Origin: Bacillaceae bacterium
GTDB lineage: Bacteria > Bacillota > Bacilli > JACDOE01
DNA: 64,000 bases
NCBI GenBank assembly: GCA_017656255.1
Contig: JACDOE010000001.1
Location: 248,001 to 312,000 of the forward strand
Reading direction: 5' to 3'
Positions 30,381-33,826 of the stretch are shown here, in pieces (positions within the stretch are counted from its first letter, which is position 1; the number at the start of each line of letters is the position of its first letter). Below the pieces are notes generated by a model. That model was not told where the DNA came from. It did not search any database and saw only the letters and a list, made by a program, of their open reading frames with translations. A program made the translations under genes and the position numbers.

Positions 30381-32006
30381 ATGAAACAATCAGTTCTACG
30401 ATCAGGAAGAGCACGTTCTGCACTGAAGAAGGCTACCTCCATTGCAGACAAAATTCGACCGTTATTGAAAGGGGTTACAAATTTCGAGGATGTGAAGGAT
30501 AAGGTTGGGGAAGTCCTCGACCAGGAATTGAAAGATGATGAATATGTACTGGTCATTGATCAGGACGGGAAAGCGCTTCGACATACCAACCGGTTACGGG
30601 AGGGGCTTTTATTTAATGACGATGTGGGGATTAAAGCAGCCTCAACCGATCAACCGATCCTGCAGTTATATCCGAGAAATACAGGAGAACTGGTTATCGA
30701 TGCTTCCTGCCCGATTTATAAAGGGGACGGCTACCGATATAATCTGCGTCTCGGAAGAATTGTCCACAAACCATTCTTGGGCCCGTTAATTTTCGGACTG
30801 GCGCTTGGTCCGACTGTACTTGCCAGTATAGTTGCTTTTTTTATGGATCTTCCTTGGCAATCGATTATTCTTTCCATGTCGGGTGGAATCGTTGTGGGTC
30901 TTGCAGGTGGAATATGGGGCTATCGCCGGTTGACCGGCAGCCTGAGAGAATGGTACACCATGACCCGAAACATTTCGTCCGGTGACCTGACTTCCCTTTT
31001 AAAACCGAGGGGTCGCAATCATTTTGACCAGATGGGTTATGAATTGAACAAAGTAGCCCTTGGAATGAGCTCAATTATGAAAGAACTGGGTACCTCTGCA
31101 GAAACGACCAAAGAAATCAGTCAGGCGCAATCCAAAGAAACAGAACGGCAGGTTCAGGTTTTCGAACAACTTTCATCGACGATACAAAAATTTTCGACCG
31201 GAACGGAAGAGCAGTTGTCCTCCCTGCAGAATGCTCTGGGGATGATTAACGAAATGAGAAACGCAGCACAGGGGATGAAGGACAACATAGACGTTACAAT
31301 GGAGCACAGTGAAAATGCTTCGCAAACTGCCCAAAAGGGTACGGAATCAGCCAGCCGATCGGTCGAACAAATGAAGTTGATTCAGGAAACAGTAGCAGAA
31401 TTATCTTCTGTAATTTCCATGATGGCGGATGATTCCAGACAAATTACCGAGCAGGTAGCTGCGATCACAGATATCGCCCGCCAAACGAATCTGCTGGCTT
31501 TAAATGCGTCTATCGAAGCATCCAGAGCCGGAGAGAATGGAAGAGGCTTCGCTGTGGTCGCAGAGGAGGTCAGAAAGCTGGCTGAGGATACGTCTACCTT
31601 TGCCGATAAAATCATGAGTGTGTTGACACATATGGATGAGGAAGCGAATCAGGCTGTTGACAAAGTTAAAAACAGTGTGGAAGAGATCGGGCAGGGCGTG
31701 TCGCTGGTCGAGTCCTCACGGAATGCGATAAGTGAACTGAATGATGTGGTGGAGCAAACACGTCATCAGGTTCTTGAAAATCGAAAACATGCTGAGGTAC
31801 TGATTGATGACAGTACGGAACTGCAAAATATTATGGAAAGTTTAACACATATCAGTGAAGAATTTACAGAGTCAGCGTCAGAAACAGCGGGGACAGTCGA
31901 TCAACAGGTCAAAGGCATACAGGAACTGGCTGAGGATGCGGGTGTCCTGCTTGACAAGTCATCGGATCTGGAGCAAATTGTAAAGCGGTTTAAGTTTTCG
32001 AAGTAG
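30381..32006 (+). CDS. methyl-accepting chemotaxis protein with a cytoplasmic N-terminal sensor
   Basis: Chemoreceptor of 541 residues. There is no N-terminal membrane anchor. Residues 1-120 are a soluble domain with Cache/PAS-like texture ([24 protein letters not shown], then [20 protein letters not shown]-like). Next come two close hydrophobic segments (about 130-180), a HAMP-like piece ([19 protein letters not shown]) and the signalling coiled coil with the hairpin core [37 protein letters not shown]. The short hydrophobic hairpin implies that the sensor faces the cytoplasm. AAGGGGGG precedes the ATG. Ligand unknown. Confidence 0.85.
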
Positions 32007-32033
32007 CTGGATAAACCTGCTGATATATAAATT

Positions 32034-32135
32034 TAAAAACAGGTAAAGATTAGATGTTGAAAGTTCGATGTAAATGTGTTATTTTATTAATTGCCGTGCT
32101 TCTGACGGACACGATCTGATCTTTACCTGTTTTTA
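32034..32135. repeat. 17-bp perfect inverted repeat flanking the tRNA promoter
   Basis: TAAAAACAGGTAAAGAT (32034-32050) is exactly repeated in reverse complement at 32119-32135, with 68 bases between. The right arm ends in TTTTTA, so it may terminate the chemoreceptor mRNA. The interval contains the likely tRNA promoter. Confidence 0.85.
32057..32085 (+). promoter_or_regulatory. predicted promoter of the first tRNA group
   Basis: TTGAAA (32057-32062) and TATTTT (32080-32085) with a 17-base spacer, inside the inverted repeat 32034-32135. Confidence 0.5.
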
Positions 32136-32143
32136 TATGGATG

Positions 32144-32205: not shown

Positions 32206-32299
32206 GGAGAGGTGTCCGAGCTGGCCGAAGGAGCACGATTGGAAATCGTGTAGGCGGGGTCAACCCGTCTCGAGGGTTCGAATCCCTCCCTCTCCGCCA
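32206..32299 (+). tRNA. tRNA-Ser(GGA)
   Basis: Class II tRNA with acceptor GGAGAGG paired to the 3' end, a long variable arm, T-loop GGTTCGAATCC and encoded CCA. The anticodon loop TTGGAAA gives GGA. Its last bases are duplicated at 32485-32506. Confidence 0.96.
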
Positions 32300-32502
32300 T
32301 AATGTAAAAACGTATGATTTATCAGACTGGTATAATCGGAAACCTGTAGCAGGGTTTCGAACCCTCTCTCCGAAGGAGAGAGCACAGGGTTCGCTGGAAA
32401 CACGACGAGGACAGGGCGAAAAGCCCGTGCCGAGTCGATGTTGGATTCCGGAGCCGAGCCGATGAAATCGGCGAAGGGGAAGGTATCCCTCCCTCTCCGC
32501 CA
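32300..32502 (+). mobile_element. structured element A behind tRNA-Ser(GGA), ending in a copy of its 3' end
   Basis: A 203-base unit follows the tRNA's CCA. The first 49 bases are AT-rich. From 32349 the core folds into GC-rich hairpins: GAACCCT/AGGGTTC (32359-32365, 32386-32392) around CTCTCC-GAA-GGAGAG; GGGC/GCCC (32414-32417, 32423-32426); and GCCGAT-GAA-ATCGGC (32458-32472). It ends with a second copy of the tRNA-Ser(GGA) terminus: 22 identical bases at 32282-32303 and 32485-32506. The core is nearly identical to element B. No coding frame is credible, because antisense frames cross the tRNA. The layout resembles an att-site duplication at a tRNA 3' end, but the unit is too short to carry an integrase. 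Confidence 0.7.
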
Positions 32503-32525
32503 TAATAATACCTGTTAATTTTAAT

Positions 32526-32601
32526 GCTCCTGTAGCTCAGTTGGTAGAGCGCATCCATGGTAAGGATGAGGTCGCAGGTTCGATCCCTGTCGGGAGCACC
32601 A
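32526..32601 (+). tRNA. tRNA-Thr(GGT)
   Basis: 76 bases with acceptor GCTCCTG..., anticodon loop ATGGTAA (GGT), T-loop GGTTCGATCC and encoded CCA. Confidence 0.95.
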
Positions 32602-32608
32602 TAGAAGT

Positions 32609-32685
32609 GGCGGCGTAGCTCAGATGGCTAGAGCGTACGGTTCATACCCGTGAGGTCGGGGGTTCGATTCCCTCCGCCGCTACCA
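32609..32685 (+). tRNA. tRNA-Met(CAT), elongator
   Basis: 77 bases, anticodon loop TTCATAC. It closely resembles the B. subtilis elongator tRNA-Met and lacks the three G-C anticodon-stem pairs of initiators. CCA is encoded. Confidence 0.94.
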
Positions 32686-32691
32686 TTACAC

Positions 32692-32765
32692 AGGGGCATA
32701 GTTTAATGGTAGAACAGCGGTCTCCAAAACCGCCAGTGTGGGTTCGATTCCTACTGCCCCTGCCA
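32692..32765 (+). tRNA. tRNA-Trp(CCA)
   Basis: 74 bases, acceptor AGGGGCA, anticodon loop CTCCAAA, encoded CCA end. Confidence 0.96.
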
Positions 32766-32776
32766 CTCAAGATAAT

Positions 32777-32853
32777 GGCGGCTATGGCGAAGTGGTTAAC
32801 GCACCGGATTGTGGCTCCGGCATTCGTGGGTTCGATTCCCACTAGTCGCCCCA
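32777..32853 (+). tRNA. tRNA-His(GTG)
   Basis: Anticodon loop TTGTGGC. The extra 5' G (32777) pairs with C73 (32850), the mark of tRNA-His. CCA is encoded. Confidence 0.95.
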
Positions 32854-32859
32854 AAGTAC

Positions 32860-32952
32860 GGAGGAGTACCCAAGTCTGGCTGAAGGGAGCGGTCTTGAAA
32901 ACCGCCAGGGCGTTCGCGCGCCGCGGGGGTTCGAATCCCTCCTCCTCCGCCA
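32860..32952 (+). tRNA. tRNA-Ser(TGA)
   Basis: Class II tRNA, acceptor GGAGGAG, anticodon loop CTTGAAA, GC-rich long variable arm, encoded CCA. Its 3' end is duplicated at 33138-33157. Confidence 0.96.
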
Positions 32953-33155
32953 TGAAAATTGATCAATGAATAACAAACATCAATAATTAAAATAAATCCT
33001 CGGCAGGGATGAAGAACCCCCTCTCCGAAGGAGAGAGTGCGGGGTTCGCTGGAAACACGACGAGGACAGGGCAAAGCCCGTGCCGAGTCGATGTTGGATT
33101 CCGGAGCCGAGCCGACGAAGTCGGCGAAGGGGAAGGTATCCCTCCTCCTCCGCCA
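32953..33155 (+). mobile_element. structured element B behind tRNA-Ser(TGA), ending in a copy of its 3' end
   Basis: Second copy of the element. After an AT-rich stretch of about 50 bases the core (33003-33155) matches element A almost base for base. Differences fall mainly at paired positions: stem GAACCCC/GGGGTTC (33014-33020, 33041-33047) and GCCGAC-GAA-GTCGGC (33111-33125), each with compensatory change against A, plus a shorter loop in GGGC-AAA-GCCC. The last 20 bases of tRNA-Ser(TGA), 32935-32954, recur at 33138-33157. The offset between the duplicated tRNA ends is 203 bases, the same as in A, although the AT-rich halves differ. Confidence 0.7.
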
Positions 33156-33226
33156 TGTAATAAACAAACAACAACACAAAAGAGAAGGTGACTCACCTCT
33201 CATTTCTCACATCCCACATCCAACCC

Positions 33227-33319
33227 GGAGAGATACCCAAGTGGCTGAAGGGGACGGTTTGCTAAACCGTTAGTGGGCCTATTGGCCCAGCGCGGGTTCG
33301 AATCCCGCTCTCTCCGCCA
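33227..33319 (+). tRNA. tRNA-Ser(GCT)
   Basis: Class II tRNA, acceptor GGAGAGA, anticodon loop TTGCTAA, long variable arm, encoded CCA. Its 3' end is duplicated at 33494-33509. The 71 bases before it contain a palindrome, AGGTGA-C-TCACCT, near 33186-33198. Confidence 0.96.
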
Positions 33320-33509
33320 TAATCATAAATATAGCGTATAGCAGTAAACACAAAGTTGAATCATACATAACAAGTAAATCGCGCGGGATTCAGAACCCGC
33401 GCAGCGGAGTTCGCAACTTAGACACAGCGGCTACGTCGAACAAGCATCAGCGCAGCTGTGTCATCCGGGTGCTGGTGCAAAGCAGCAGTGAATCCGCTCT
33501 CTCCGCCAT
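33320..33509 (+). mobile_element. divergent structured element C behind tRNA-Ser(GCT), ending in a copy of its 3' end
   Basis: A 190-base unit with the same plan as A and B but little sequence identity. An AT-rich start is followed by GCGCGGG/CCCGCGC (33381-33387, 33396-33402), overlapping an alternative hairpin GAAC-CCGC-GCA-GCGG-A-GTTC (33393-33412) that mirrors the first stem of A and B and is likewise followed by GC. Then GACACAGC/GCTGTGTC (33421-33428, 33455-33462). GGATTC (33386-33391) can pair with GAATCC (33490-33495) to close the unit. It ends with 16 bases identical to the tRNA-Ser(GCT) terminus (33305-33320 and 33494-33509). Confidence 0.6.
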
Positions 33510-33526
33510 CAACCATAAATTACATC

Positions 33527-33555
33527 TTGAAAATCATGCAATAACACGTTATAAT
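33527..33555 (+). promoter_or_regulatory. strong predicted promoter of the Asp-Lys-Ile tRNA group
   Basis: TTGAAA (33527-33532) and TATAAT (33550-33555) with a 17-base spacer, 20 bases before tRNA-Asp. Confidence 0.8.
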
Positions 33556-33574
33556 AAATCTTGTTTTCTCACCG

Positions 33575-33651
33575 GGAGCTGTGGTGAAGCTGGAGTTCAC
33601 GCCGGTCTGTCACACCGGAGGCCGCGGGTTCGAGTCCCGTCAGCTCCGCCA
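33575..33651 (+). tRNA. tRNA-Asp(GTC)
   Basis: 77 bases, acceptor GGAGCTG, anticodon loop CTGTCAC, encoded CCA. The D-arm GTGAA/TTCAC is unusually self-complementary. Confidence 0.94.
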
Positions 33652-33663
33652 TTACCGAATCAT

Positions 33664-33739
33664 GAGCCATTAGCTCAGTTGGTAGAGCACCTGACTTTTA
33701 ATCAGGGTGTCGCAGGTTCGAATCCTGCATGGCTCACCA
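33664..33739 (+). tRNA. tRNA-Lys(TTT)
   Basis: 76 bases, acceptor GAGCCAT, anticodon loop CTTTTAA, encoded CCA. Confidence 0.96.
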
Positions 33740-33749
33740 TTTCTATTTT

Positions 33750-33826
33750 GGGCCTATAGCTCAGTTGGTCAGAGCGCACGCCTGATAAGCGTGAGGTCGG
33801 TGGTTCAAGTCCACTTAGGCCCACCA
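33750..33826 (+). tRNA. tRNA-Ile(GAT)
   Basis: 77 bases, acceptor GGGCCTA, anticodon loop CTGATAA, encoded CCA. Confidence 0.96.

Follow-up and report, generated by a model that had tools for sequence, protein, structure and literature searches.

Probable tRNA-linked repeats with a conserved fold behind tRNA-Ser genes of a Bacillaceae bacterium

Introduction

Behind two tRNA-Ser genes of a Bacillaceae genome, within the 64,000-nucleotide stretch of DNA analysed here (the window), lie two closely similar elements, A and B. The original prediction, made from the letters alone, held that both keep a fold by compensatory base changes and that selection acts on a folded RNA or a single-stranded DNA and not on a protein. 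The locus thus raises the question of what kind of element this is and in which form its fold matters. We consider it probable that A, B and a third element, C, are tRNA-linked repeats (TLRs), non-coding cassettes of ~190-205 bp that would be cut from the tRNA transcript as folded RNA. TLRs have been known in E. coli since 1978 and are said, in the accessible parts of PMC8144298, to have no known function. The same source counts 22 TLRs in strain K-12 and cites TLR papers of 1978, 1991 and 1999.

Results and discussion

ARAGORN places ten tRNA genes at 32206-33826 of the window. A, B and C directly follow those for tRNA-Ser (GGA), (TGA) and (GCT), respectively, and run in the same direction. 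The parts of the three elements are listed below with the evidence used to place them.

32206..32299 (+), tRNA-Ser (GGA), host gene of A (ARAGORN); its last 18 nt, 32282-32299, recur at A's end
32300..32348 (+), leader of A, A/T-rich and unconserved across loci (alignment)
32349..32484 (+), folded body of A, from the 5' strand of the closing stem P1 to the tail copy (alignment, RNAalifold, folding energy)
32351..32366 (+), inverted T-arm copy of tRNA-Ser (GGA) in A, AGGGTTTCGAACCCTC
32359..32392 (+), stem GAACCCT/AGGGTTC of A, 32359-32365 with 32386-32392, enclosing the hairpin CTCTCC-GAA-GGAGAG; T32365-A32386
32414..32426 (+), hairpin GGGC-GAAAA-GCCC of A
32458..32472 (+), last hairpin of A, GCCGAT-GAA-ATCGGC
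32485..32502 (+), tail copy of A, which repeats the final 18 nt of tRNA-Ser (GGA) in direct orientation and begins with the P1 3' strand
32860..32952 (+), tRNA-Ser (TGA), host gene of B (ARAGORN); tail 32935-32952
32953..33003 (+), leader of B (alignment)
33004..33137 (+), folded body of B (alignment, RNAalifold, folding energy)
33014..33047 (+), stem GAACCCC/GGGGTTC of B, enclosing CTCTCC-GAA-GGAGAG; C33020-G33041
33111..33125 (+), last hairpin of B, GCCGAC-GAA-GTCGGC
33138..33155 (+), tail copy of B, which repeats the final 18 nt of tRNA-Ser (TGA) in direct orientation
33227..33319 (+), tRNA-Ser (GCT), host gene of C (ARAGORN); tail 33302-33319
33381..33491 (+), C, a second body family with the layout of A and B; inverted T-arm at 33381-33402
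33492..33508 (+), tail copy of C, 17 nt of tRNA-Ser (GCT) with one C fewer than the tRNA

In each cassette a leader is followed by a folded body and then by the repeated tRNA 3' end, which starts inside the T loop. The body opens with an inverted T-arm copy of the adjacent tRNA in A, B and C alike, while the body sequence of C differs from that of A and B. The distance from tail to tail is 203 bp in both A and B, and their tails are identical to those of their own upstream tRNAs (18/18 each), with C falling one C short at 17 nt. The original prediction, in the span it gives, makes no mention of the 18-nt tail copies, the inverted T-arm copy or element C, and the TLR identity of the elements had gone unseen. 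Upstream, between an ORF end at 32006 and the tRNA cluster, lies an inverted repeat (32031-32138) with 25-nt arms that are 92% complementary and 58 nt apart. A promoter scan of the tRNA cluster was at chance level (3 found, 2.4 expected).

The TLRs of E. coli K-12, rtT/RttR of tyrT-tyrV and RrA/RrB/RrF behind 5S rRNA, resemble A, B and C in being non-coding, adjacent to a tRNA or 5S gene and oriented in its direction. They likewise share 18-19 bp of 3' end with the upstream gene and occur in tandem copies. The likeness extends to the E. coli tyr units, in which an inverted T-arm opens the body, and to the tyr, lys and arg units, which have a P1 matched to their tails. A/B and C differ from the E. 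coli TLRs by their own body sequences, by the absence of the GCCCGAAGGGC hairpin typical of proteobacterial units and by their position behind tRNA-Ser and tRNA-Arg genes in a Bacilli genome.

The same genome carries 11 units behind six tRNA genes (1, 1, 1, 2, 3 and 3 per gene), so that several loci hold one to several units each. Tandem arrays occur at three of the six, and all five tRNA-Ser genes seen are among these six genes. Seven copies belong to the A/B family: besides A and B, a second tRNA-Ser (TGA) is followed by a tandem pair and tRNA-Arg (TCT) by a tandem array of three. Their bodies are 86-93% identical to A or B, while the leader from tRNA to body varies by locus. The C family has four copies, C itself and a tandem array of three that follows a second tRNA-Ser (GCT). 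It was located at 33363-33508 of the window and at 816-1376 of locus L022, which holds this second gene; the third L022 copy retains ATCCCG and has lost the acceptor part of its tail. Rfam reports 57 tRNA matches in the genome. Tail copies were counted by a script over the ARAGORN tRNAs of 14 sources covering the Rfam tRNA places, apart from one partial tRNA match at a contig end, with a cut-off of at least 16 of 18 letters; tRNAs other than the six unit-bearing ones reached at most 14/18. Among 60 class-level relatives, no close homologues of B and C were found besides those in the own genome.

The letters and coordinates on which compensation between A and B had been argued are all correct. 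The closing pair of the first stem, GAACCC(T/C)...(A/G)GGGTTC, is T32365-A32386 in A and C33020-G33041 in B, and the last hairpin reads GCCGAT-GAA-ATCGGC at 32458-32472 of A and GCCGAC-GAA-GTCGGC at 33111-33125 of B. The third hairpin changes in its loop alone (GGGC-GAAAA-GCCC in A, GGGC-AAA-GCCC in B). Five more copies from the same genome, two termed D and three termed E, were added to this comparison. RNAalifold found 42 pairs in the seven A/B rows, two of them changed on both sides, with the second compensated site passing through a wobble (columns 118/148; A-U in A and B, G-U in D, G-C in E). A third compensated pair, that of the last hairpin, was scored by eye because MAFFT misaligns this hairpin. 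There are also breaks: P1 is imperfect in A and in D, with a U-U mismatch in A at a site that is A-U in the remaining copies, the tail is mutated (ATGCC) in both D copies, and the third E copy has a broken last hairpin. With about three independent compensations, A/B alone provide modest evidence for a maintained fold; the strong evidence comes from the wider class. Folding energies lie below those of shuffled sequences (z -3.2 for A, -3.7 for B), more weakly so in copy L010 (-1.65) and in a C-type L022 copy (-1.04). A protein-coding gene was rejected: no frame is conserved, copies differ by 1- and 2-base indels in loops, and changes track the stems. The predicted selection on a fold and not on a protein is therefore supported, both by these loop indels and by the wider covariation described below.

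For a survey of other bacteria, the order of E. coli rtT (leader, inverted T-arm, T-arm 5' strand, body, then T-arm 3' strand with acceptor 3' strand and CCA) was turned into one DNA pattern and scanned over one genome per species. The scan yielded at least 116 stretches, and the 80 loci listed correspond to 89 matches. A tail copy of the upstream tRNA with at least 16 of 18 letters was present in 79 of the 89 matches listed and one more had 15, while the other nine had no tRNA within 1500 nt upstream. By record title, the hosts of the tail-matching hits listed include Proteobacteria, Verrucomicrobia, Chlorobium, Clostridia, Saccharibacteria, Gracilibacteria and Gastranaerophilales. For 72 loci among those listed the isotypes were Ser 24, Tyr 12, Lys 11, Gln 10, Arg 10, Pro 2, His 2 and Glu 1, counts that are biased because the pattern demands ATCC tails. 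Within E. coli, the layout recurs at tyrT/tyrV and in both the lys and the arg operon; inspection of argX-hisR-leuT-proM by eye revealed no unit. TLR anatomy is spread over many bacterial groups, namely Bacilli, Clostridia, Verrucomicrobia, Chlorobium, Saccharibacteria and Proteobacteria. Simple chance is rejected by the tail identity and by the shuffles given below.

Homologues were gathered, a covariance model was built and covariation was scored. The alignment holds 33 elements with a clear body, hand-picked from the 80 listed loci, a choice that favours agreement; 32 are proteobacterial by title or look, one is from Chlorobium and none is from Bacilli. Across these 33, 14 of 25 consensus pairs are changed on both sides and 92.4% of cells are paired, with a covariation score of 0.315 compared with 0.048-0.072 for slid controls and 0.100 for shuffles. 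The helices follow in the order P1, P2, P3, P4, P5 (GCCCGAAGGGC), P6 and P1', with P4 assigned by eye outside the model. P2 is GAACC/GGTTC, with either GA/GA or TC/GA flanks. A tandem GA motif is mentioned for RtT in the accessible part of PMC7657543, in keeping with the first of these flanks.

The 3' strand of P1 is the copied tRNA tail itself, and the stem joins segments ~100-150 nt apart. We compared P1 with the host tRNA at six outer positions outside GGAT/ATCC, which the pattern leaves unconstrained, using the first unit per tRNA. At 72 loci among those listed, a mean of 3.53 of the 6 positions form Watson-Crick pairs compared with 2.13 for shuffled tails (0/5000 shuffles); with one locus per distinct tail (41 loci), the values were 3.39 and 2.03 (0/5000). 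The lys, arg and tyr units of E. coli K-12 resemble each other in P4-P5, but each has a P1 strand that fits its own tail. The P1 5' strand follows the local tRNA sequence. This shared fold with a tail-made P1 is a feature that we propose here, outside the published TLR definition.

The covariance model from the 33 units (R1) contains no Bacilli unit. It aligns at full model length to A (32343-32502, 21.8 bits), B (32997-33155, 21.8 bits) and C (33377-33508, 14.8 bits), and to two C-type L022 copies at 29-30 bits. Bare tRNA tails score 13-15 bits. Compared with one such tail (15.4 bits), A/B lie ~6 bits higher and C no higher, so that R1 by itself tells A/B only weakly apart from a bare tail and fails to distinguish C from one. 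It is therefore mainly the layout, and less the model, that assigns A, B and C to the class. All three have P1 and P2 but lack the usual form of P5. At E <=1e-3 per genome, with a rough, proteobacteria-heavy model and strict filters, R1 had hits in 3 of 299 genomes of the window's class. Equally rough searches, with hits partly checked, covered the class that includes Nitrococcus mobilis (97 of 229 genomes hit), the class to which a Clostridia MAG belongs (7 of 245) and the phylum that contains an Akkermansiaceae MAG (21 of 194). Of the loci fetched by R1 in these three other groups, 22 of 25 have a tail of at least 17/18 behind a tRNA, and the fetched stretches of the remaining 3 contain no tRNA.

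Rfam has no named family for A, B or C. Its family RF00391 (RtT) matches units behind Tyr, Lys, Gln and Ser tRNAs at several of the scan loci listed, and describes one branch of the TLR class. No RtT match was found in 32290-33560 of the window, even with E up to 5, and A, B and C fall short of the gathering cut-off of 45 bits. Weak Rfam matches to sX4 and YrlA were discarded, as they fall on tRNA genes, tRNA gene borders or the leader of B.

The original prediction had left it open whether the fold matters as RNA or as single-stranded DNA, and rightly so. If an RNA is under selection, single departures from a stem should be G-U pairs rather than A-C mismatches. Reference ratios of G-U to A-C were 28:1 for tRNA acceptor stems, 97:23 for tRNA arms and 55:22 for terminator-like hairpins. 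The ratio for TLR hairpins was 13:17 when six or more Watson-Crick pairs were required, 9:6 at seven and 8:4 at eight. Counted over every pair, the unfitted alignment gave 12:9, and P3-P6 gave 21:19 (96 non-redundant rows). The outer two pairs of P1 reached 22:2 in the 96 non-redundant rows and 14:3 in the unfitted data. Outer pairs 3-5 showed the reverse (9:26), perhaps since P1 ends there in many units, and the outer four pooled gave 19:19. An alignment fitted with the covariance model, which leans to G-U by construction, gave 90:36. The answer thus varies with how the test is run.

With no preference for G-U over A-C, the hairpins, including those first cited for A and B, fit hairpin-templated DNA mutation and could equally be kept by it. 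More generally, the fold might matter as DNA or be a by-product of palindrome-correcting mutation of this kind, with no RNA function. This reading, which we regard as rather unlikely, draws on the contrast of the 13:17, 12:9 and 21:19 ratios with those of tRNA acceptor stems and terminator-like hairpins, and on the reverse strand, where folding energy is equally extreme (z -3.3 for A, -3.7 for B). It is at odds with P1, a stem that spans ~100-150 nt, follows the tRNA and favours G-U in its first two outer pairs (14 to 3), and with RrA/B/F, which are made as RNA in E. coli according to the accessible parts of PMC8144298. For the long-range closing stem, the counts in its inner part look like the product of an RNA constraint.

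The left edge of the copied stretch is sharp. At the 68 loci with exact tails among those listed it always lies inside the T loop, no more than 3 nt from ATCC (+0 nt in 18, +1 in 43, +2 in 3 and +3 in 4). The right edge is at or a few nt past CCA in most and much further in ~20 of the 68, and such far edges are followed by tandem copies or a shared terminator. The E. coli lysQ unit (L279 2136-2346) repeats the tRNA tail plus ~36 nt with the following terminator. Filled and empty sites both occur in E. coli, where the spacer after argY equals the flank after the argV and argZ units. Behind the first tRNA-Tyr, the flank follows directly in strain MB07011, after one 175-bp unit in K-12 and after two units in EH09-18-41, and the number of annotated RtT at the matching region ranges from 0 to 6 among the 40 E. 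coli strains listed. The unit has no essential role there, as tyrT strains without units exist and the number of whole units varies. In strains AVS0754 (L282) and S21EC (L283), which have no RtT unit at tyrT, a desaturase gene replaces narI; it ends ~16 nt behind tRNA-Tyr on the opposite strand.

These edges could also be read as those of tiny mobile elements that target tRNA 3' ends. They would be joined at the T loop (A59) by a recombinase or ssDNA transposase supplied in trans, with the P1 GGAT guiding them to the target ATCC and the tail being an attachment-site repeat. A left edge inside the T loop at 68 of 68 loci among those listed is as expected for tRNA-directed integration, and bodies that are 86-93% identical stand behind Ser GGA, Ser TGA and Arg TCT tRNAs, all with ATCCCT tails. 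Filled and empty sites at the E. coli arg and tyr loci are joined exactly at the tail, and a related body is dispersed in ~30 copies away from tRNAs in Pantoea. However, loss by recombination between tails explains the filled and empty sites as well as gain does, no enzyme has been identified, and no insertion into a new tRNA has been caught. No integrase was noticed among the ORFs listed for the window. BLAST found no copy of B in plasmid and phage collections and viral contigs contained no exact 22-mer of the element; a consensus unit compared with phage sequences matched four Salmonella/Escherichia records with 65% of the query covered. We consider mobility of this kind possible, if doubtful.

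Integron attC sites and IS200/IS605-type ends work as folded single strands that recreate a duplex resembling the target, with guide-like pairing. TLRs would share such a strand and the guide-like pairing (GGAT/ATCC) with them and differ in having no associated enzyme identified and in their 18-19 bp repeat of the target. The dispersed repeat of Pantoea agglomerans contains P3, P4, P5, P6 and the GTAATC of the proteobacterial TLR body, and scores 54 bits with R1 without a tail. It differs from TLRs in lying off tRNA genes, with its own outer stem and no tail copy. The ~30 dispersed copies are at L214-L218, L221, L222, L224 and L249-L278, and the repeat also occurs in 43 Pantoea plasmid records.

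A duplicated tRNA 3' end is a common downstream remnant of integrated elements, and the tail copies might accordingly be scars of lost prophages or islands in tRNA genes, with the body being unrelated debris. The similar unit length, the tandem arrays, the conserved fold and the match of P1 to the tail speak against such an origin, which we find hardly credible; as a pure phage scar it is ruled out by the conserved body and P1.

For the preferred reading, that A, B and C are TLRs released as folded RNA, the best-described case is RrB, a TLR linked to 5S rRNA. According to the accessible parts of PMC8144298, it arises by read-through transcription, its 5' end is at an RNase E site 3 nt after 5S and its 3' end lies 3 nt past the 18-nt repeat, for which the authors suggest recognition by RNase E. 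By extension of this case, A, B and C would be cut from the tRNA transcript between two copies of one 3' end. The cassette would be transcribed together with the tRNA, and 3'-end processing after each tail copy would release a folded RNA with a tRNA-like 3' end. P1 would close the released RNA and may present or protect its end. Units would be gained and lost by recombination between tails, and bodies would have spread to other tRNA genes. Such units may be largely self-maintaining and not essential. Deletion of rrA/B/F had modest effects in the experiments described in the accessible parts of PMC8144298.

The released RNA might instead be a regulator, for instance a sponge for CsrA/RsmA that acts through GGA motifs in its loops. 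Binding of RrA/B/F to CsrA and Hfq is described in vitro (accessible parts of PMC8144298), and in many gammaproteobacterial units the P3 loop contains GGGAG and the P6 loop AGGAT. The hairpin loops of A/B, however, are GAA, GAAAA and AAA, without GGA, and 19 tRNA-linked units have a CsrA score <0.01 in the same parts of PMC8144298, making this role quite improbable in our estimate.

The most far-reaching proposal would unite transposition with release: TLRs would be a single family across phyla, made up of minimal mobile elements without proteins that settle at tRNA 3' ends guided by P1, have the tail copied on arrival and are then released as folded RNA by host tRNA processing. We offer this as speculation that is unlikely to hold in full.

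The TLR class itself is known, while its wide distribution, common fold and tRNA-matched P1 are apparently new. In the literature searched, where most subscription papers lay beyond reach, we found neither TLRs outside Enterobacteriales nor a fold common to several tRNA types or a P1 match to the host tRNA. A curiosity of E. coli thereby becomes a general, testable problem: what keeps P1 paired, and how do units reach new tRNA genes? Another Bacilli genome has a TLR-like unit behind a tRNA-SeC gene (L234 409-695), with a tail of 18/18. At L225 of Pantoea agglomerans, three tRNA-Arg (ACG) genes are each followed by a unit, like part of the E. coli argVYZQ operon.
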